A DNA stretch of 64,000 nt, taken from NCBI RefSeq assembly GCF_023913515.1, contig NZ_CP099392.1, forward strand, positions 62,001-126,000, in the 5' to 3' direction. This DNA comes from Natronococcus sp. CG52 (GTDB lineage Archaea; Halobacteriota; Halobacteria; Halobacteriales; Natrialbaceae). Of this stretch, positions 3,036 to 53,790 are shown in pieces. The notes beneath the pieces were generated by a model. The model was not told the DNA's origin. It did no database searches and saw nothing but the letters and a program-made list of their open reading frames with translations. The position numbers were made by a program, and so were the translations under genes. Within the stretch, counting starts at the first letter, position 1; every line of letters starts with the position of its first letter.

Positions 3036-4058
3036 ATGAGATACTTTGTCAAACGAACGCTTCACGCAGTCGTGACACTCATATCTGTAACGACGATCAC
3101 GTTCGCGCTATTTCGGCTTATGCCGGGGAACCCGGCCCAGGCGATGCGGGCGCAATTCGAGTCGCAAATGGAAGCAGGTGGGGGGACGGCCGATCCCGAG
3201 GTGCTCGATGCGATGGTCGAACAACACACCGGCTTCGATCCCGATCAGCCGGTGTACGTCCAGTACGTCGAGTACCTGCAGGACATCATCCTCTACCAGG
3301 ATTTCGGTCACTCGTACGTCTACAACGCCCCCGTGTTCGATATCCTGTTTGCGGCGATGCCCTGGTCCGTCTTCATCAGCGTCTACGGACTGGCGCTCGG
3401 ATACACGACGAACATCCTCCTCGGGGCGGCGATGGCCTACAAGGAGGGATCGCGGTTCGACACCTACACGACCGTGCTCGCGACGTTCCTGAACTCGGTT
3501 CCGTACTACGTGGGCGCGATCCTCTTTCTCGCGTTTTTCGGCTACGAGCTCGGACTCTTCCCGACCGGCGGACGGTACAACACGAGTCTGGAAACCGGTC
3601 TGAACGTCCGGTTCATGGCGAGCATCTCCTACCACGCCGTACTGCCGATCATGTCGAGTTTCATCGTCGGCTTCGGCGGAGGAGCTCTCTCGATGCGAGG
3701 AAACTCCATCCGGATCCTGGGCGAAGACTACCTCCGCGTCGCGCGGCTCCGCGGAATTAGTTCGACGCGTATCGCGACCCGCTACGTCGCGCGCAACGCG
3801 ATCCTGCCGCTGTACACCCAGATGATGATCGGCATCGCTGCGGTGTTCTCGAGCAGCGTCCTCCTCGAGTTCATCTTCACGTACCCGGGCGTCGGCTGGT
3901 ACACGTTCGACGCGGTCATGCGGCGGGATTACCCGCTGTTGATGGGATCGTTCCTCTTCTTCACGATCGTCACGCTCATCGGTATCCTCATCGCCGAGTT
4001 CACGTACGGCATCGTCGACCCGCGGATCGGATCGGGTGATCAAAGTGAGTCATACTAA
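3036..4058 (+). CDS. Dpp/Opp-type ABC transporter permease (DppB-like)
   Basis: A 340 aa inner-membrane permease. The N-terminal helix (MRYFVKRTLHAVVTLISVTTITFALFRLMPGNPA) and the RLMPGNP motif are typical of the DppB branch. There are several further hydrophobic segments, and an EAA-type cytoplasmic loop is visible as LGEDYLRVARLRGISSTRIATRYVARNAILP (about residues 226-256), the contact with the ATPase. It pairs with the DppC-like permease, whose start overlaps its 3' end. Confidence 0.92.
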   Translation: MRYFVKRTLHAVVTLISVTTITFALFRLMPGNPAQAMRAQFESQMEAGGGTADPEVLDAMVEQHTGFDPDQPVYVQYVEYLQDIILYQDFGHSYVYNAPVFDILFAAMPWSVFISVYGLALGYTTNILLGAAMAYKEGSRFDTYTTVLATFLNSVPYYVGAILFLAFFGYELGLFPTGGRYNTSLETGLNVRFMASISYHAVLPIMSSFIVGFGGGALSMRGNSIRILGEDYLRVARLRGISSTRIATRYVARNAILPLYTQMMIGIAAVFSSSVLLEFIFTYPGVGWYTFDAVMRRDYPLLMGSFLFFTIVTLIGILIAEFTYGIVDPRIGSGDQSESY

Positions 4059-10909: not shown

Positions 10910-13900
10910 ATGTCTCGCAATGAACGGAGCGGGAAGCGCAGTGACTGGGACGACGAGCGTCGTGCGGTAACCGACCGAACGACCGGTTTCGAGGTCTCGA
11001 GACGATCCCTGCTGGCGACGACCGGTGGCGGGATTCTCGCGGGGCTCACCGCCGGAACGGGAGCAGTGTCCGCCGATTCGGACGCGGTCAACGCGAAGAC
11101 GCGAACGACGCTCTGGACCGAGGAGATGCGCGAGAACGCCCGCAACAACATCGAGCGCTACGACTGGGCAGCGACCGAGCGGGATAGCGCGGTCGAAAGC
11201 GCCGACGAGTACCTCGCGGAGTACACGCTGGACGATCTCTGGCACATGGTCACCTCTCAGGAGATTCCGCGCGGCGGCGGAACGACGCACGTCCGTGAAC
11301 TGATGGGGTGGAGCTGGACCGGCGTCGGGATCGACCGCGGTCTCGACCGGCCGTGGAAGATGACGACGGCGACGGGGGAGTACGTCGTCCCGACGAACGA
11401 CTTCGCCGCCTACCGCGAGAGCGGGCTCGACGACCGCGGGATGTTCGATCCGGATCTCGCGGACGACCAGTACCTCGTCAACGAGGAACACCCCGAGATG
11501 GGCGAGGACTGGGGCGTCGACGACGGCACGGGGTGGATCGACGAGGACGGCGACATCGGCGACGAAGGGCAGCGGCTGAACTTCGCCGCGTACTACAACC
11601 ACTGGTACGTGTGGCGGCCCGGCGGAATCCTCCGGATCGTCGAAGCGCTCGCCGACGCCTACCTGCTCACCGGCGATCGGAAGTACTCCCGGGCGGGAAC
11701 GGTACTCCTCGATCGGATCGCCGACGTCTACCCGGAGATGACCATCTACGACTATCCGTTCACGGAGTACTGGAACAGCACCGGCGGACGCGGAACTGGC
11801 AAGGTGATCGGCGCGACGTGGGAGTCGAACCTGATGCGTCCGATCATCCAGGCCTACGACGCGTTCTTCCCCGGGATGGAGGGCGACGACGAACTCGTCG
11901 CGTTCCTCGACGCGAAGACCGACGAGTATCCCGGTCTCGAGGCGAAGGATTCCCTCGAGAAGATCCGCAAGAACATCGAGGACGGGATCCACCGAGAGAT
12001 ACTCCCGGCGGCGGAAAACTCGGATATCGTCCTCGAGAGCGGCGGGTACAGTGCGCTCGCACAGTCCGCGCGCGTGCTGGACGAACCCGACGGCTACACG
12101 GCGGAGGCGATCGAGTGGATCTTCCAGCCCGGCGAGGAGCAGTTCGTCGGAGACGCGTGGGACGAAGAGCCCGAGAACTGGATCACCACCGGCGGAAACA
12201 TCCTCGCGCCGCTGGTCGACGTCGTCGATCGGGACGGCTACAACAACAGGGGCTCCCCGATGTACAACCAGATCCGGCAGACCTCGTTCCGAGAGGCCGC
12301 GGATCATCTCCAGGGGTACGACGGATTCGACGGTGCCGACCTCTATCAGCATCCGAAGTTTCGGCAAACGCTTCGACAGAACACGCACCTGCTGCTTCTC
12401 GACCAGTATCTCCCCGAGATCGGCAACGCCCATCCGAACCGGAACACGGACTACCTCTCCACGAACTCGATCGAATCGGGGTACCGGGCGACCGAGCGGG
12501 ACGTCTTCGCCCAGCTGTGGCACTTCGTAAACGGCTACACGACGACGGGTATCCGCGGTTCGATCTTCGACGCCGACCCCGAGGGAGTAGCCGACGATAT
12601 CCAGGCGGTGATCGACGCCGAGGGACCGCTCGACCTGTCGAGTCGAAACCTCGCCGGGTACGGGTTCGCGGCGCTTCGTGACGGCGAGAACTATCTCAAC
12701 GAGTCGTTCGGGACCACCTACGACACCTCCGAACTGTTCGCCGAGGCGTCCACCGACGTCAACGACAGCTTCGACGAGGCCATCCAGCTACAGGCCTACG
12801 AGGAGGGCGAGTGGTGGGAGTTCGAGTTCGAGGCCGACGAGGAAGGCGAGTACGACCTCGAGATCGAGGCGCTGTTCGTTTCGACGTACGGGATCTACGA
12901 CCTGTACGTCGACGACGAGAAGATCGACACCGTCGACTTCTACAGTCCGTCGTTCGATCGGAAGACGATCACGTACACCGTCGAACTGACCGACGGGACC
13001 ACCACGATGCGCTTCGAAAACGTCGGGAAGAACGAGGAGTCGGACAACCACCTGATGGCGCTGTACTACCTCACGCTGATCGACGAGAGCGAGCGTGAGA
13101 ACAGGGACGCCGCGTCCGAACTCGGCAACGCGAAGCGAGCCTTCTGGCTCTACTACGGCCGCAACGACATCGCGTATCACAACCACAGCGATACGTTGAA
13201 CGTCGGCGTCGCCGCCCACGAACTCGAGCTCTCGCCCGATCTGGGATACGTCGAGGCCACCAGCGACTGGCCGAAGGGGCACAACTGGACGATGAACACG
13301 GTGAGCCACAATACCGTCGTCGTCGACGAAGCGGAACAGGGCACTCAGTGGGTGGCACGCCCCCGTCACTTCGACGGCGATGACGATCGGGTCAACCTCG
13401 TCGACGTCGAAGCGCCGCACGTCTATCCGCAGACCGACGACTACCGACGGACGCTCGCGATGGTCGCTGTCGACGAGGAACACTCCTACGCAGTGGACTT
13501 CTTCCGCGTCGCCGGCGGCGACGATCACCACTTCAGCTTCCACGGCGCGAAGGGCGAGGCGAGCGCCGAGGGCGTCGACCTCGTGGCCCAGGACGGCGGC
13601 ACCTACGCCGGAACGGACGTGCCGAAGCCCGACTACGGCGAGGACACCGAGTACAACCGGGCGATCGGTAACGGGTTCAACTACCTCGACGACGTCGAGC
13701 GCGACGACGACCCCGACCGAAAGGTCGTCGTCGACTGGGACGTCGAGGATCACTGGGGCCACCGCGACGACGACGCGGACGGGGTCCACATGCGACTGAC
13801 CACGTTCGGCGAGTTCGACGAGGTCGCCCTCGCGGACGGACACCCGCCACAGCACAGCGGCAACCCGGAAACGTTGCGGTACGCGCTGGCCCACCGCAGC

Positions 13901-33205: not shown

Positions 33206-34225
33206 TTACGGGCGAAGAACGGCCTTGATAACACCGTCCCGCCGCTCGGTGACGGTCTCGATCGCCGTTTCGTACTCCTCGAGCGGGAACTCGTGGGTGA
33301 CGATCCCCTCGGTCGTGAGTTCGCCGCGGCGAAACAGCGAGACGACGTCTTCCGTCGCGTGCGAGGCCGTGACGCCGCCGACGACCTCGAGCTCCTTCGC
33401 GACGATCTGGTTCGGGTCGATCTCCTTGCGTTCCCCGAAGACGCCGGTGAGGACGATCGATCCGCGCTTCCGCGTCGCCTGCAGACAGGTCTCGACGACG
33501 TCGCCGGCGCCGGCGGTTTCGACGCAGAGATCGACGCCGTCGCCGTCGGTGTACGAGCGAAGCGCGTCGACGGGATCCTCCTCCCGCACGTTGACGGTCA
33601 GGTCCGCGCCCAGCGATTCGCCGACGGCGAGTCGTTCGTCTCTCGTCCCCGTCAGCACGACGTCGTCGACGCCCTGAGCCTCGAGCAGTTGCACGCCGAA
33701 CAACCCGAGCGAGCCGGGGCCGAGAACGGCCGCGGCGTCGGAGAACGACGTCTCGACGCGCTGGAGGCCGTGTAACGTACAGGCCGCCGAGTCGATCTGA
33801 CAGGCCTCGACGTCGGAGACGTCGTCCGGGATCGGCGTCAGGGTGTACGCCGGAAACGCGGCGTACTTCCGGTAGCCGCCGGCGACGGTGAAGCCGATCT
33901 CCTCGAGGTCGTCGCACTGGTAGTACCGACCCTCGCGACACGGGGTGCAGGTGCCGCAGTAGACGAATCCGTGGAGGGCCACTCGATCGCCGACCGAGAG
34001 CGACTCGACGTCGGATCCGAGTTCGACGACTTCGGCACACACCTCGTGGCCGGGAGTCAACGGATACCGCGTCCAGGGTGGCCCTTCGCCGTGAATCAAC
34101 CCGAGGTCGCTGCCGCAGATGCCGACGGTGCGAACGCGAACCAGCGCCTCGTCGGCGCTGGGTTCCGGCCGCGGCTGCTCTTCGTCCCATATCTCGCCGT
34201 CACCGTTCGTGACTAGTGCCTTCAT
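33206..34225 (-). CDS. Zinc-dependent medium-chain dehydrogenase (sorbitol/threonine dehydrogenase-like)
   Basis: A 339 aa medium-chain dehydrogenase. The catalytic zinc site is visible as GICGSDLGLIHG (Cys37) and LTPGHEVCAEV. The structural zinc lobe is YCGTCTPCREGRYYQC (about 93-108), and the nucleotide-binding region includes VLGPGSLGLFGVQLLEAQG. Likely oxidises a sugar alcohol or secondary hydroxyl. It stands alone upstream of the DegT/ceramidase pair on the same strand and divergent from ridA. Confidence 0.88.
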   Translation of the reverse strand: MKALVTNGDGEIWDEEQPRPEPSADEALVRVRTVGICGSDLGLIHGEGPPWTRYPLTPGHEVCAEVVELGSDVESLSVGDRVALHGFVYCGTCTPCREGRYYQCDDLEEIGFTVAGGYRKYAAFPAYTLTPIPDDVSDVEACQIDSAACTLHGLQRVETSFSDAAAVLGPGSLGLFGVQLLEAQGVDDVVLTGTRDERLAVGESLGADLTVNVREEDPVDALRSYTDGDGVDLCVETAGAGDVVETCLQATRKRGSIVLTGVFGERKEIDPNQIVAKELEVVGGVTASHATEDVVSLFRRGELTTEGIVTHEFPLEEYETAIETVTERRDGVIKAVLRP

Positions 34226-48362: not shown

Positions 48363-48383
48363 CACACCGGGTTTCCGGTGAAA
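48363..48383 (-). repeat. ORB-like repeat copy 1
   Basis: Reads CACACCGGGTTTCCGGTG on the plus strand, the reverse of the consensus; part of a CACACACA run. Confidence 0.7.
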
Positions 48384-48516
48384 CGGAACGAGTAGAGGGC
48401 GGACGAGGGGTTCGTCGATGTTCATCTGGTGTTCTCGATCGATCTCGAGACGACCGACCGCCGGGAGAACAAGTCACCATCTCACGAGCCCCGTAGGAAA
48501 CGAACACTATCAAACT

Positions 48517-48537
48517 CACACCGGATTTCCGGTGAAA
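48517..48537 (-). repeat. ORB-like repeat copy 2
   Basis: Reads CACACCGGATTTCCGGTG on the plus strand; reverse orientation, one base different from copy 1. Confidence 0.7.
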
Positions 48538-48539
48538 GA

Positions 48540-48926
48540 TCGTTCTTTCTATCCGCTTCCTACCCATACCCATAGAAAGAATCACAGTAAGAATCCAGAA
48601 GCAGACATCACTACAGATAGGGGCCGAGTCCATAGAGCTCCAAGATCTATAGGTAGTAGCTCCATAGACGGTTCCCATAAATATATAGGTAGTTTTATTA
48701 CCCTCCAGAGAGTAAAGTCCATTGAGTTAATCACATATATTAGAGAGTGACGAAATGTCACGTTAGTACTTTCGTGTTTCCAGGTGATTCGCACCCGAGA
48801 TCTCTCGTCTCTCTATTTTAGAACTCGTTTGTGTCGGGCGCGCACTGCACTAACACGATCATTGACAGGCACCTCCCCGCTTTCGAACCCCCGTTTCTCC
48901 TGCAGCACAATCGCCCTCACATCCTA
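48540..48926. other. AT-rich segment between inward-facing ORB-like repeats, candidate unwinding element
   Basis: Contains AT-rich tracts (ATAAATATATAGG near 48678, CACATATATTAG near 48731) and repeated CTCCA/CTATAGG words. It is bounded by minus-strand copy 2 and plus-strand copy 3. No gene is supported here. Confidence 0.45.
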
Positions 48927-48947
48927 TTTCACCGGAAATCCGGTGTG
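48927..48947 (+). repeat. ORB-like repeat copy 3
   Basis: TTTCACCGGAAATCCGGTG followed by a long TG run; forward orientation. Confidence 0.7.
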
Positions 48948-48975
48948 TGTGTGTGTGCCGCCGAAACTCTCAAGT

Positions 48976-48996
48976 CAATTCACCGGAAACACGGTG
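48976..48996 (+). repeat. ORB-like repeat copy 4, next to the orc start
   Basis: TTCACCGGAAACACGGTG, forward, ending 9 nt before the orc ATG, where initiator binding would also repress its own gene. Confidence 0.65.
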
Positions 48997-49005
48997 CCTG
49001 AGTAA

Positions 49006-50220
49006 ATGCCCACATCCGACGATCTCTTTATTCGAGAGGATCCGATTTTCATCAACAAGGAGCTTCTCGAGATCAGCCATCTCCCGGACGAGGGGCGGAT
49101 TGTTGGTCGAGACGAAGAGATTAGCCAACTTGCTAACGCAGTCAATCCCGCAATCTTCGGACAGAGTCCGAGCAACGTGCTCATTTACGGAAAAACCGGG
49201 ACTGGAAAATCTCTCTGCGCGAAGTACGTTTCCAGACGACTCGTCGAGACTGCCGAAGAAGAAGGGATCACAGCCGTCTTCGCCTACGTCGACTGCGCTC
49301 AGGATACCACCGAAACGCAGGCCGTCCAGACGATCGCGAGCTCCGTCAATATCGATTCGACGGATATCTACATTCCCGACAAGGGTATTAGTACGGCGAC
49401 CTACTACAAACGACTCTGGCGGCTGCTCAACCAGGAGTATGATGTTGCACTGATCATCCTCGACGAGATCGACAAACTCGAGGACGACGCGATCCTGATG
49501 CAACTCTCTCGTGCTGGCGAGGCGGGGAAAGTAACGGATTGCAAGATCGGGGTTATGGGGATCAGTAACAAGATCAAGTACAAAGACCGGATGGACGAAC
49601 GGGTCAAGTCCAGTCTGTGCGAACGGGAGTTCGTCTTTCCGCCGTACAATGCGAGCCAACTCAACGAAATTATGGTCGCACGGAGTGACGCGTTTCGGGA
49701 CGGCGTTCTCGAGGACGCAGTCATTCCGCGGGCGGCAGCGCTTGCCGCTCGCGAGCACGGTGATGCCCGTAAAGCGATCGATATTCTCCGGTATGCCGGC
49801 GAGATCGCGCAAGCGAAGGACGTTGACATCGTCCGGGAGAAGTTTGTCGTCCAGGCCCGCGAACGTGCGGAGGTCGACCGATTCCGTGAACTTATCCGCG
49901 GTTCGACGCCCCACTCCCGGTACGTCCTGCAGGCGTTGACCGTGCTCTCTCTCGATCACCAGCGCGACGGTGGTTCCGTAGAGCACCACGGGTTCCGAAC
50001 GACCCGAATCTACGACGTCTACGAACAGATCTGTCGGCAGGAAGGAACCGATGCACTCTCACTCCGCCGCGTTCGGGATCTGCTAAAGGAACACGCCTTT
50101 CTCGACATTCTCGAACAGACACGCCACAGTGGCGGGAGTGCCGAAGGGAGCTATACCGAACACACGCTCCTCGAGAACCCTGAAGTTGTCAAAGACGTGC
50201 TCGAAGATACGGTCGAGTAA
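49006..50220 (+). CDS. Orc1/Cdc6 family replication initiator
   Basis: A 404 aa AAA+ ATPase with C-terminal winged helix. Walker A GKTGTGKSLCAKYV lies at about 62-75, Walker B LIILDEIDKLEDD at about 153-165, sensor 1 in IGVMGISNKIKYKDRM, and sensor 2 region AREHGDARKAIDILRYAGEIA. The last 120 residues (SRYVLQALTVLSLDHQRDG, IYDVYEQICRQEG, LRRVRDLLKEHAFLDIL) form the origin-binding winged helix. It binds ORB elements and loads MCM. Flanked by ORB-like repeats on both sides, so it probably drives the adjacent origin. Confidence 0.93.
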   Translation: MPTSDDLFIREDPIFINKELLEISHLPDEGRIVGRDEEISQLANAVNPAIFGQSPSNVLIYGKTGTGKSLCAKYVSRRLVETAEEEGITAVFAYVDCAQDTTETQAVQTIASSVNIDSTDIYIPDKGISTATYYKRLWRLLNQEYDVALIILDEIDKLEDDAILMQLSRAGEAGKVTDCKIGVMGISNKIKYKDRMDERVKSSLCEREFVFPPYNASQLNEIMVARSDAFRDGVLEDAVIPRAAALAAREHGDARKAIDILRYAGEIAQAKDVDIVREKFVVQARERAEVDRFRELIRGSTPHSRYVLQALTVLSLDHQRDGGSVEHHGFRTTRIYDVYEQICRQEGTDALSLRRVRDLLKEHAFLDILEQTRHSGGSAEGSYTEHTLLENPEVVKDVLEDTVE

Positions 50221-50243
50221 TTTCTATCCCTGCGGCGTCTCGA

Positions 50244-50264
50244 ATTCACCGGAAACGTAGTGTG
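50244..50264 (+). repeat. ORB-like repeat copy 5
   Basis: ATTCACCGGAAACGTAGTGTG; the left half is intact, the right arm is degenerate. Confidence 0.6.
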
Positions 50265-50284
50265 TTTTGTAATACCGCTTTCCC

Positions 50285-50305
50285 TTTCACCGGAAACCCA
50301 GTGTG
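50285..50305 (+). repeat. ORB-like repeat copy 6
   Basis: TTTCACCGGAAACCCAGTGTG with one change in the right arm. Confidence 0.7.
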
Positions 50306-50322
50306 CTCGCAACAGACTCTTA

Positions 50323-50343
50323 TTTCACCGGAAACCCGGTGTG
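50323..50343 (+). repeat. ORB-like repeat copy 7
   Basis: Exact consensus, core CACCGGAAACCCGGTGTG; 38 nt from copy 6. Confidence 0.75.
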
Positions 50344-50505
50344 TTCGCTATCGGGGAAGGGCAGCCATGACGACGGGAACTGTTAGTCGGAAATTTTCAT
50401 TCTCGCTCTCCGATCGTCTCTCCATCCGTTTGTCCCTGGTTTGATCCGGTTCGGAAAGCTTGTCGGCCTATTGTGCCGGCTTCAGACGGCGGTTGCAATC
50501 CTGCT

Positions 50506-50526
50506 GTTCACCGGAAACCCGGTGTG
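50506..50526 (+). repeat. ORB-like repeat copy 8
   Basis: Consensus core CACCGGAAACCCGGTGTG, forward orientation. Confidence 0.75.
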
Positions 50527-50551
50527 GATGACAGTAATCAGAAGAACTGGA

Positions 50552-50572
50552 GACACCGGGTTTCCGGTGAAA
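50552..50572 (-). repeat. ORB-like repeat copy 9
   Basis: ACACCGGGTTTCCGGTGAAA on the plus strand; the only reverse copy downstream of orc, 25 nt after copy 8. Confidence 0.75.
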
Positions 50573-50626
50573 CGGGATCTCTGAATCTTGTTATCCATTA
50601 ACAATAAACGTTGGCATGAGACTCAT

Positions 50627-50647
50627 ATTCACCGGAAACTCGGTGTG
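50627..50647 (+). repeat. ORB-like repeat copy 10
   Basis: ATTCACCGGAAACTCGGTG, forward, one change in the centre. Confidence 0.7.
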
Positions 50648-50821: not shown

Positions 50822-51958
50822 TTGGCTCGCTCCGAACCGCGCTCCTGTCGTGCGGTCGGTGTGGAAACCGTTAGTTGGTATTATAGCGACGGACAGACAC
50901 ACTATATCGCAGAAACGGACGGAGGCGCGAGCAGCGAGATCGAATCAGCCGGATTCGAGATCCTCTCACCGGTCGTCGATGGTACTGTCGTTCTCGTGAA
51001 GGGACCCGAGGGTGCGGCCGACGAACTCAGCAACGTGCGCGGCGTATCTACGGTAGTTTCCGACTTTGTGGTCGAACTCGAGGGCCCGAACGTCTCCTCG
51101 AAAGCTGTCGACACCGAAATCGACGATGTCGTCGATGACGGGGTATACGACGGGTATCTCCGGAACGAACAGGTCCAGCAGGGCCGTGAGGCCCACGAGT
51201 ACGCGACCGGTGCGGGACAGACGGTCGCCGTTATCGACACCGGTGTCGACGACACGCACCCCGATATCGATGTCGATATCGAACGCAGCACGACGATCAT
51301 CGACGGTCAACCGGACGAGCACATCGGCGATTCCGGATATCACGGGACGCACGTACATGCAATTGCCACGGGATGCCGACGTTGGGGCGTACCGCCGACT
51401 GTTCGAACCAGTTGCTAACAGCGTAGCGCGCGACGGAACGGTACTGGTTGGATCGGGTGGCAACGACGAAACCGATCTCAATGGCGGCTGGCTGCGTCTC
51501 TGGAACGGTCTCGACGGCGTAATGGGCGTAAGTGCTCTGACGCACGGGGCGAACTGTCCTACTACTCCAACTACGGTACCAGCGACATCGATGTTGGTGC
51601 GCCTGGCGGCGACTACGAAACACAGGAGAAGACGTTCACCGAGGACTTCGACGAAGTCGCACGTCCCTGGCCGCTCAACGCGATTTTCTCGACCGTTCCC
51701 GGGGAAGATTCTCTCTCCGACCCCTACGTGAATACGACGATCGATGGGGACGCGTACGGGTGGCTGATGGGTACCTCGATGGCGGCCCCGCAGGTAGCGG
51801 GTCTCGCTGCACTCGTCCGGGAACTCGAGCCGGATTTCAGCGCCCGGTACGTTGAGAACGCGATTAAACGGGGGGCGGAGGGGGGAGATGGACAGAGCGA
51901 CGACGAACTCGGCGCGGGGCGCACGAACGCGCTGGATGTTGTCGAATCCCTCGATTAG
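50822..51958 (+). pseudogene. Decayed subtilisin-like (S8) serine protease
   Basis: Three pieces of a halolysin-like subtilase lie in two frames. Piece 1 (50822 to about 51370) has an inhibitor-like propeptide, the catalytic Asp in VAVIDTGVDDTHPDI and His in GYHGTHVHAIA. Piece 2 (about 51371-51550, shifted frame) reads DADVGAYRRLFEPVANSVARDGTVLVGSGGNDET. Piece 3 (51551-51958, first frame) reads ELSYYSNYGTSDIDVGAPGG and the catalytic Ser in GTSMAAPQVAGLAALV. About 50-70 residues that should follow the His motif are missing and no signal peptide remains, so it is a true pseudogene, not one sequencing slip. Confidence 0.85.
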
Positions 51959-52203
51959 CTCCTTCTCGAGGAACCTACTAATTGCTCGCCGCCGCTGCCG
52001 GTCGTCGTTTCGTCACCGACGTCGCGACTTCGAGCGTCGACACGAACCGGCTTCTCACTCGGTACTTGTAACCCCAGTAAGTTCGCTTTGATTTCTCCCT
52101 GCCTCGAGTGACTGCGCTACGCGCCGAAGCTACCTATCGGACAGTTCGTCTACTATCTGGGTTACTCAGAGTGGAACGTCTCGGTGAGGTGTGTTCGTAA
52201 CCT

Positions 52204-52293
52204 ACAATAGGTGCAATAGTTACCTCGCCTAATCCGTCTACCCTATCTATCCAATATATTATCCCTATTGCACCTATTATCCCTATTGCACCT
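52204..52293. repeat. Iterated CTATTGCACCTATT motif upstream of parA
   Basis: ATTATCCCTATTGCACCT occurs twice in perfect tandem (52258-52275 and 52276-52293). The core recurs inverted as AATAGGTGCAATAG at 52206-52219. Such iterons in front of parA genes often act as the centromere or as ParA/partner operator. Confidence 0.6.
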
Positions 52294-52390
52294 TTCGGAG
52301 CTATACCAGCTACTGTAGCTGCCTGCGGTAGAATTATATGCCTCTCGTTGGATGTGTGTACTGTCCGCTGAAACAGACGTTCGTGGTACA

Positions 52391-52402
52391 ATAGGTACCT
52401 AT
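52391..52402. promoter_or_regulatory. 12-bp palindrome in front of parA
   Basis: ATAGGTACCTAT is a perfect palindrome 31-42 nt before the parA ATG and shares the AATAGGT word with the upstream iterons. Position suggests an operator overlapping the promoter. Confidence 0.4.
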
Positions 52403-52432
52403 CGAAATTTGAAGCGGGTGGAGTCACACAAC

Positions 52433-53320
52433 ATGACAACAACAGACGAGCCCCGCGCCGTGAGCGTGGTCATCCTGAAAGGTGGTGTCGGCAAGTCAAC
52501 GACCTCGATGAATCTCGCGCGCCAGCTCGCCGAGCGTGGTCCGACGCTGTTCGCGGACCTGGATCCGAACGGTCACGCGACGAACGGCCTCGGATTCACG
52601 GACGCATACCGGAGTGAGACGAATCTCGGTGACGTCATCCTCGACGGAAACGCGACACCGAAGGACATCATTCGGCAGACCGAGTACGGCTTCGATCTGC
52701 TGCCGTCGTCGAACACGCTCGAGGACGTCGAAAAGGACCTCGCCGGCGCGATGCAGGGATCGGCCCGCGTCAAGTCCAACATCGTCGACCCGCTGCTCGG
52801 CTCCGCGTACGAGTACATGGTCTTCGACTGCCCGGCCTATCCAGGGATGCTCAACAACAACGCCCTGGTCGCGACGGGCAACGTGATGATCCCGATCGAA
52901 CCCGGGTCGAGCGCGATCGGTGGGTACAAGCGAACGATGGAGCGGTTGATCGAACCGGCCCGTGAGTACATCGACGTCGACGTCCTCGCCATCGTACCCA
53001 ACAAACTCGAGGATCGAATCGATCAACGGACCGAAGATCGGGAACTGCTCGAGAACCTGAACACGGCGAGTTACGAGGTGAACCCCGGCCAACCGCTTCC
53101 CGAGGTCGTACCGGCGTTCGCTCGCATTACGGCCGAGGAGTTCGAGCAGATCGACGAGGGTGAAATCAGACCGCCGAAGCCCGGCATTCGGCACCGTGCA
53201 GCGCTCTCTCGGTCGCTCAGCGCAGAACAGCCACTCCAGGACTACGATCCGGAGTGCGATCAGATCGAGTACTACGAGGAACTCGCGGCGATCGTCGCGA
53301 ACGGAGGAGTCGAACGATGA
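52433..53320 (+). CDS. parA: ParA family plasmid partition ATPase
   Basis: A 295 aa ParA/MinD-type ATPase. The deviant Walker A KGGVGKST is at residues 16-23, switch I DLDPNGHATNGLGF near 42-55, and Walker B YMVFDCPAYPGMLNNNAL near 125-142. It would move plasmid DNA bound by a partner. The stop overlaps the next start (ATGA). ATG 52433 is chosen because the ATPase strand begins 10 residues later; a longer reading from 52352 has no family-like sequence. Confidence 0.92.
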   Translation: MTTTDEPRAVSVVILKGGVGKSTTSMNLARQLAERGPTLFADLDPNGHATNGLGFTDAYRSETNLGDVILDGNATPKDIIRQTEYGFDLLPSSNTLEDVEKDLAGAMQGSARVKSNIVDPLLGSAYEYMVFDCPAYPGMLNNNALVATGNVMIPIEPGSSAIGGYKRTMERLIEPAREYIDVDVLAIVPNKLEDRIDQRTEDRELLENLNTASYEVNPGQPLPEVVPAFARITAEEFEQIDEGEIRPPKPGIRHRAALSRSLSAEQPLQDYDPECDQIEYYEELAAIVANGGVER

Positions 53321-53790
53321 GCAATCCGTTCGACGACCTGAAAGCCGAGAGCGGCGAGGACGGAGAGGGTGAGGTAGACGGAGAGGATAGAACGGTCGGG
53401 GTCGAGGCCGAGACCGACGAAGCGGAGCCCAGTTCCAGTTCGGATGCGCTCGAACCCGACGTAACGCAGGAAGCGCCGACCTCGAGCCCGGATTCGAAGT
53501 CGAAATCGGGGGCCGCTGTCGAACAGGAGTCGCGCGAGTCGACGCCGCCGGCGGATTCTGGTCCGGCCTTCGAGTACTCGACGGTGCGTCAGCGCCCGCT
53601 GTACGCCCGTTCCGAAACGTGGGACGATTTCGAAAAAACGCTTCGAACGTCGATCACTCCGACGCTGGCCGAAGAGGATGTCGTCGACGAGGAAACCCGC
53701 GAGATACACGACGCAGTGCTTCGACTCGCAGCCTCCGAACCGGAACGAGTTGCGGAACTGGTGCTCGAGGCTCGCCGTCAGCCGGAGTGA
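53317..53790 (+). CDS. Small acidic ParA partner protein, unknown family
   Basis: A 157 aa protein whose first half is acidic and low-complexity (DDLKAESGEDGEGEVDGEDR, SSSSDALEPD). The last 65 residues look folded and helical: RPLYARSETWDDFEKTLRTSITPTLAEEDVVDEETREIHDAVLRLAASEPERVAELVLEAR. The ATG overlaps the parA stop, so the two are co-translated. By position it should be the DNA-binding or adaptor partner of ParA, although no ParB or ribbon-helix-helix domain is evident. Confidence 0.75.
   Translation: MSNPFDDLKAESGEDGEGEVDGEDRTVGVEAETDEAEPSSSSDALEPDVTQEAPTSSPDSKSKSGAAVEQESRESTPPADSGPAFEYSTVRQRPLYARSETWDDFEKTLRTSITPTLAEEDVVDEETREIHDAVLRLAASEPERVAELVLEARRQPE

Follow-up and report, generated by a model that had tools for sequence, protein, structure and literature searches.

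The initiator gene and its replicon

The analyzed stretch of DNA (64,000 nucleotides of Natronococcus sp. CG52, G000:C2:62001-126000; here, the window) carries an orc1/cdc6 initiator gene, P0001, at 49006 to 50220 on the forward strand. The predicted 404-aa protein combines an AAA+ domain with a Walker A motif, a Cdc6 lid, and a C-terminal winged helix. It scores above the cutoffs of PF22703, PF09079, PF13401, and TIGR02928 and aligns with 2qby and 2v1u. The reading frame is unbroken and its 404 residues are conserved; the best paralog in the same genome is 55% identical.

Contig C2 is 392,952 bp long, and its last 35.7 kb repeat the first 35.7 kb with 99.9% identity; the replicon is thus circular, with a size of about 357 kb. 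P0001 is its only orc gene. These data uphold the proposal of an earlier, sequence-only reading of this DNA that an orc-adjacent candidate origin lies on a megaplasmid. Contig C1 also looks like an untrimmed circle, as duplicated orc matches are found 3,936,292 bp apart; gene counts near the ends of both C1 and C2 are doubled. A chromosomal Orc1/Cdc6 of 618 aa, probably of the oriC1 type, is encoded at C1:16466-17995 (L029) and has an acidic, probably disordered insertion of ∼125 residues in its AAA+ domain. In another part of the window (12904 to 12996), ARAGORN calls a tRNA-Lys(ctt). An 89% copy of it lies on C2 at a distance of 3.9 kb, and the chromosome offers no full match; the call is probably not a real tRNA.

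Ten ORBs surround the initiator gene

The ten copies of an origin recognition box (ORB)-like element that had been reported on both sides of orc1/cdc6 were all located, between 48363 and 50647. Upstream of the gene, two boxes on the minus strand (ORB 1, 48363 to 48383, and ORB 2, 48517 to 48537) face two on the plus strand (ORB 3, 48927 to 48947, and ORB 4, 48978 to 48998) across a gap of 389 bp. ORB 1, TTTCACCGGAAACCCGGTGTG, has the top family score at the locus (43.4), and ORB 3 has a (GT)n tail. The downstream cluster packs six boxes into 404 bp: ORB 5 (50244 to 50264), ORB 6 (50285 to 50305), ORB 7 (50323 to 50343), ORB 8 (50506 to 50526), and ORB 10 (50627 to 50647) lie on the plus strand, and ORB 9 (50552 to 50572) is inverted.

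When up to 3 mismatches are allowed, the window contains 13 matches to the 16-nt core (two are opposite-strand readings of sites already counted, and one, at 33848, is a 3-mismatch stray), compared to 0.72 ± 0.85 matches (largest, 3) in dinucleotide shuffles. The cores of the ten boxes range from exact to 3 mismatches; TTCACCGGAAA and the GTG at core positions 14 to 16 are invariant in all ten. Across the 4.74-Mb genome, TTCACCGGAAACNCGGTGT with 0 to 1 mismatches is found only in the orc-locus cluster and at one exact site, C2:325844, and the reversed motif has no match genome-wide. Thus, the genome-wide search that had been suggested as a check revealed no scatter: the element is clustered at the orc locus, with a lone exact copy on the same replicon. 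The next best cluster in the genome, C1:2892470-2892759, matches with 2 to 3 mismatches and is located at another orc gene. Of the other orc genes of this genome that were examined, most are accompanied by different repeats or by none that could be detected, in line with the published specificity of initiators for their ORBs.

The segment between the facing boxes (48538 to 48926) is the presumed DNA unwinding segment. As the sequence-only reading had stated, it is AT-rich and ∼390 bp long: ORBs 2 and 3 are 389 bp apart, and the AT content is 54%, versus 39% for the replicon. Its heart, at about 48677 to 48777, reaches 67% AT, the 99.7th percentile of the replicon. A GC-skew profile, also suggested as a check for an origin, has no inflection at the site on C2; on this contig, the GC, AT, purine, and keto skews, whether cumulative or circular, gave no signal there.

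A parA-type partition ATPase gene (P0002, 52433 to 53320, plus strand), a replicon-maintenance gene outside the origin itself, starts 2.2 kb after the orc stop codon, with 1.8 kb between it and the last box. It is followed on the same strand by a small ParA partner gene (53317 to 53790; 157 aa, no Pfam family), and in most annotated relatives the gene after parA encodes a hypothetical protein. CCTATTG/CAATAGG repeats upstream of parA (52203 to 52412) differ in sequence from the ORBs and are also found upstream of parA homologs at L239, L241, L244, L245, and L230; they are candidates for a parS site or a parA operator unrelated to the ORBs. Immediately after the ORB cluster, at 50822 to 51957, the window carries what is left of a frameshifted S8 (subtilisin-type) protease; on pHALXA01 (L156), an S8 peptidase likewise lies downstream of orc.

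The locus is a member of the oriCb family

P0001 is 78 to 98% identical to the Orc proteins of 80 loci (L060 to L139) from Natrialbaceae, Haloarculaceae, Haloferacaceae, and others, and 90% and 84% identical to those of the orc genes found on pNMAG01 and pHALXA01. All 81 loci, this one included, share a layout in which facing ORBs surround an AT-rich segment next to orc, and the top-scoring boxes are usually the pair nearest to this segment. With a motif that was trained on the window and then refined on the homologous loci, 551 boxes were found across the 81 loci; shuffled versions of the loci gave none.

Many Haloferacaceae loci, from Haloferax, Halorubrum, Halobellus, Halogeometricum, Haloprofundus, and Halohasta, run on into a 16S rRNA gene if the contig extends far enough; 22 such loci were detected. 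Wu et al. (2012) defined oriCb by an Orc identity of at least 80% and described an rRNA-linked type (Hvo_orc5, Hla_1524, and Hbo_14700) and a second, unlinked type that includes Natrialba magadii and Halopiger members; Htu_5222, Nma_3611, and Hxa_0635 are also named as members (PMC3528665). The rRNA synteny of the Haloferax and Halorubrum homologs matches this oriCb/orc5 description (PMC3528665). Judged by Orc identity and synteny, the locus is therefore a member of the oriCb (orc5/cdc6G) family, an identity that the sequence-only reading had missed, and belongs to the second, unlinked, mostly extrachromosomal type.

The family resemblance, an Orc 78 to 98% identical and facing upstream ORBs around an AT-rich segment, comes with differences: ten boxes flank the gene here, and they end in a GT-rich tail instead of a G run. 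The "G-string" described for other haloarchaeal ORBs is absent from these boxes, and in the family the tail reads GGTGT and then a weak (GT)n; G runs do occur at the repeats of other orc genes of the same genome. On pNMAG01 (NC_013923.1; L155 and L158), the record places the start of orc at base 566, and the three inverted ORBs upstream of it lie beyond the zero point, at −749, −1018, and −1291. Nmag_3611 was listed with ORBs downstream of the gene (Wu et al., PMC3528665); if this is the pNMAG01 orc, the exception may be explained by the point at which the circle was cut.

The box is polar, with a partial dyad

The element had been described as almost fully palindromic and thus possibly read by the initiator in either direction. 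The first half of this description holds for the outer arms only: CACC...GGTG is 93 to 99% symmetric in the 551 sites. Toward the center, the pairs are symmetric in 60, 34, 13, and, at the dyad axis, 0% of the sites, and the first two flanking pairs (TT/TG) are symmetric in 1%. The orientation is also patterned, with most left boxes on the minus strand and the start-proximal box on the plus strand in 81 of 81 loci. Reading in either direction is not supported: the GGAAA core and the flanks are polar, and the orientation is nonrandom. With only the arms symmetric, we view the box as a polar ORB with a partial dyad rather than as a two-way palindrome. The box has a presumed half-site resemblance (TTC-spacer-GGAAAC) to the ORB of Sulfolobus and Aeropyrum.

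In published DNA structures, Orc1/Cdc6 monomers bind inverted-repeat ORBs asymmetrically (PMC6742236). The oriC1 ORBs and mini-ORBs of Sulfolobus and Aeropyrum share with our locus opposed boxes that flank an unwinding element and polar binding within an inverted repeat, with both unwinding and binding putative here (PMC6742236); they differ in having a G-rich tail, whereas the right half of the box here is YNYGGTGTGTG.

This analysis provides the oriCb family with a precise polar ORB definition, TTCACCGGAAAYNYGGTGT, which predicts the presence of the initiator with few exceptions. Among 71 Natrialbaceae genomes, the exact motif is present in all 44 that have this orc and in 2 of the 27 that lack it. 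Among 194 genomes of the order, the counts are 77/86 with the initiator versus 3/108 without it (Fisher test, 1e-39, phylogeny ignored), an association inflated by shared ancestry. Eight of the nine initiator-bearing genomes without the exact motif come from family f11, in which Orc is 72 to 76% identical and 0 to 2 exact motifs are found per genome; the ninth has a truncated match. Conversely, three genomes have boxes but no such orc. One of them, G025, has five origin-like boxes at 3120 to 3548 of L230 (G025:C6:56000-62500), next to a parA homolog; in G248, the boxes are near contig ends, possibly because of an assembly gap; and G188 has one site. A second cluster of seven ORBs was also found in G039, in the last 4 kb of C5 (L229), on a replicon other than that of orc.

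Start-proximal and downstream boxes

As noted before, 9 nt separate the core of ORB 4 from the orc ATG at 49006; the core begins 25 nt before this ATG, making the box a candidate autoregulatory site. This spacing is conserved: a plus-strand box whose core begins 23 to 26 nt before the start codon is present in 75 of 80 loci, rendering the suggested autoregulation plausible. Haloarchaeal mRNAs are often leaderless, and a box at this distance would then overlap the core promoter. Autorepression of orc through this box would be the simplest reading of the arrangement.

Downstream boxes are less common, found in 25 of 81 loci. None of the 22 rRNA-linked loci has them, versus 25 of the 59 that are not rRNA linked, an association that is partly phylogenetic because the cluster changes only five times on the Orc tree. 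Nor does a contrast of plasmid versus chromosome hold cleanly, since in G003 the ORB cluster and downstream boxes lie on a 4.0-Mb contig. The split between rRNA-linked chromosomal and unlinked loci suggests a hypothesis in which a plasmid origin became chromosomal, or the reverse.

The sequence-only reading missed that the six downstream boxes correspond to a known type of titration module. In Haloarcula hispanica, oriC2-cdc6E likewise has an upstream origin and an ORB-rich region, oriC2D, downstream of the initiator gene (PMC3936714). Titration by the downstream ORBs has genetic support there: oriC2D reduces origin activity and can be deleted only together with oriC2 (PMC3936714). The two modules differ in that oriC2D is chromosomal, with 11 downstream boxes in 722 bp, whereas the 404-bp cluster here is on a plasmid; by likeness to oriC2D, its six boxes probably titrate Orc.

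A very probable megaplasmid origin and its alternatives

Taken together, the ten clustered boxes, the sole orc gene on a circular replicon, the conserved box layout, and the co-occurrence of motif and initiator make it very probable that this region is the orc1/cdc6-linked replication origin of the ∼357-kb circular megaplasmid and a member of oriCb. Counting against it are the missing skew inflection, the (GT)n ends in place of a G-string, and the 0 to 2 exact motifs in f11 genomes. As such, the locus is an ordinary, well-supported origin of a known family. The analysis pins down the likely origin of this haloarchaeal megaplasmid, together with its likely initiator and copy-control layout; the main interest lies in the clean family definition and in orphan boxes found elsewhere, both computational.

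In the mechanism that we propose, oriented monomers of the Orc encoded at 49006 to 50220 would bind to the ten polar ORBs. Boxes 1-2 and 3-4, which face each other, would flank the AT-rich segment, which would melt and be loaded with the MCM helicase. Orc bound to box 4, just before the start codon, would probably repress orc, and the six downstream boxes would probably soak up Orc and damp reinitiation, as oriC2D does in H. hispanica. The closest experimental counterparts are oriC2-orc5 of Haloferax volcanii and oriC3-cdc6G of Haloferax mediterranei, which belong to the same Orc family by rRNA linkage and by the Orc tree (PMC6063281, PMC4595724). Both are active in vivo and need the adjacent orc (PMC6063281, PMC4595724); deletion of orc5 in H. 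volcanii abolishes initiation at oriC2 (PMC6063281). The Haloferax origins are chromosomal and next to rRNA genes, whereas the present locus is on a plasmid; in the Haloferax relatives, most boxes are upstream, with none within 900 bp downstream, where six are found here.

Some predicted haloarchaeal origins are dormant, for example, in H. mediterranei (PMC4595724). By analogy, the cassette could be intact while the megaplasmid is replicated from another site, leaving the cluster with a regulatory role only. Such relics would fit the ORB clusters that lack this orc in G025 and on the second replicon of G039. We nevertheless consider a dormant origin unlikely: P0001 is the sole orc gene on the circular contig, its frame is intact, and the layout is kept in 80 other loci.

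It is less probable still that the array is mainly transcriptional, with Orc or another regulator binding CACCGG-N4-CCGGTG as a dimer. The near-complete symmetry of the outer arms and the box abutting the orc start codon are what such an operator would look like, but nearly every site has a polar GGAAA core and polar TT/TG flanks, the orientation is patterned, and a paralogous ORB, TTCATCTGAAAYNCGGTGT, breaks the dyad while keeping the polar parts; asymmetric binding of inverted repeats by Orc1 monomers (PMC6742236) also argues against a dimer. The least credible idea is that the boxes form a centromere-like (parS) array for the neighboring ParA and not an origin, a role to which the proximity of parA and the location of the G025 boxes, next to a parA homolog and without this orc, could point. 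We rejected it, since eleven plasmid loci with ParA 83 to 87% identical have no ORB in their 6- to 8-kb flanks (one of these records starts 0.7 kb before parA) and the parA genes examined have their own upstream CCTATTG/CAATAGG repeats.

Single boxes away from the origin

Single ORBs far from the cluster recur among the genomes; the exact pattern is expected ∼0.0006 times per genome. The orphan of the Natronococcus genome itself is L169:3842 (C2:325837-325864). In a set of 20 orphans from Haloferacales and related genomes, nearly all lie outside genes called by heuristic ORF calling.

Orphan boxes are found at orthologous gaps in different species and genera and are essentially missing from genomes without this Orc. 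Among neighbors that we named by eye from sequence, and which we therefore take to be gyrA, speB, cdc48, bcp, aspC, HflX, and PH-domain genes, boxes recur in the bcp/cdc48 gap (L252, L253, L254, L267, and L275), in the gyrA/speB gap (L266, L268, and L269), in the gap between aspC and a PH-domain gene (L272 to L274, possibly L264), at HflX (L256, L259, and L262), and between convergent membrane and PH-domain genes (L159, L162, and L166). Others are found at genes for a radical-SAM protein (L163, L167, and the Natronococcus L169), an MFS protein (L164 and L168), a TPP enzyme (L218 and L220), and an M24 peptidase (L217 and L219).

The gaps are convergent, divergent, and tandem alike, indicating that promoter control is not the common factor; dispersed titration or chromosome organization would fit better than promoter control alone. 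We tentatively suggest, as a possibility that we currently rate below even, that the oriCb initiator acts not only at its origin but also at single orphan ORBs dispersed over the genome, one to a few in each. In the limited open-access literature, we found no description of orphan ORBs. DnaA works away from origins, at datA, and the conserved orphan boxes make comparable off-origin work of an archaeal initiator testable.

The evidence for orphan boxes is their shared gene neighborhood. Boxes are also more identical than their flanks, but because both members of each pair were found by the pattern, this identity was not used as proof. Orphan boxes inside genes, those for an aromatic amino-acid lyase and an amidohydrolase, were left out of account, being probably coincidental matches in protein-coding sequence.
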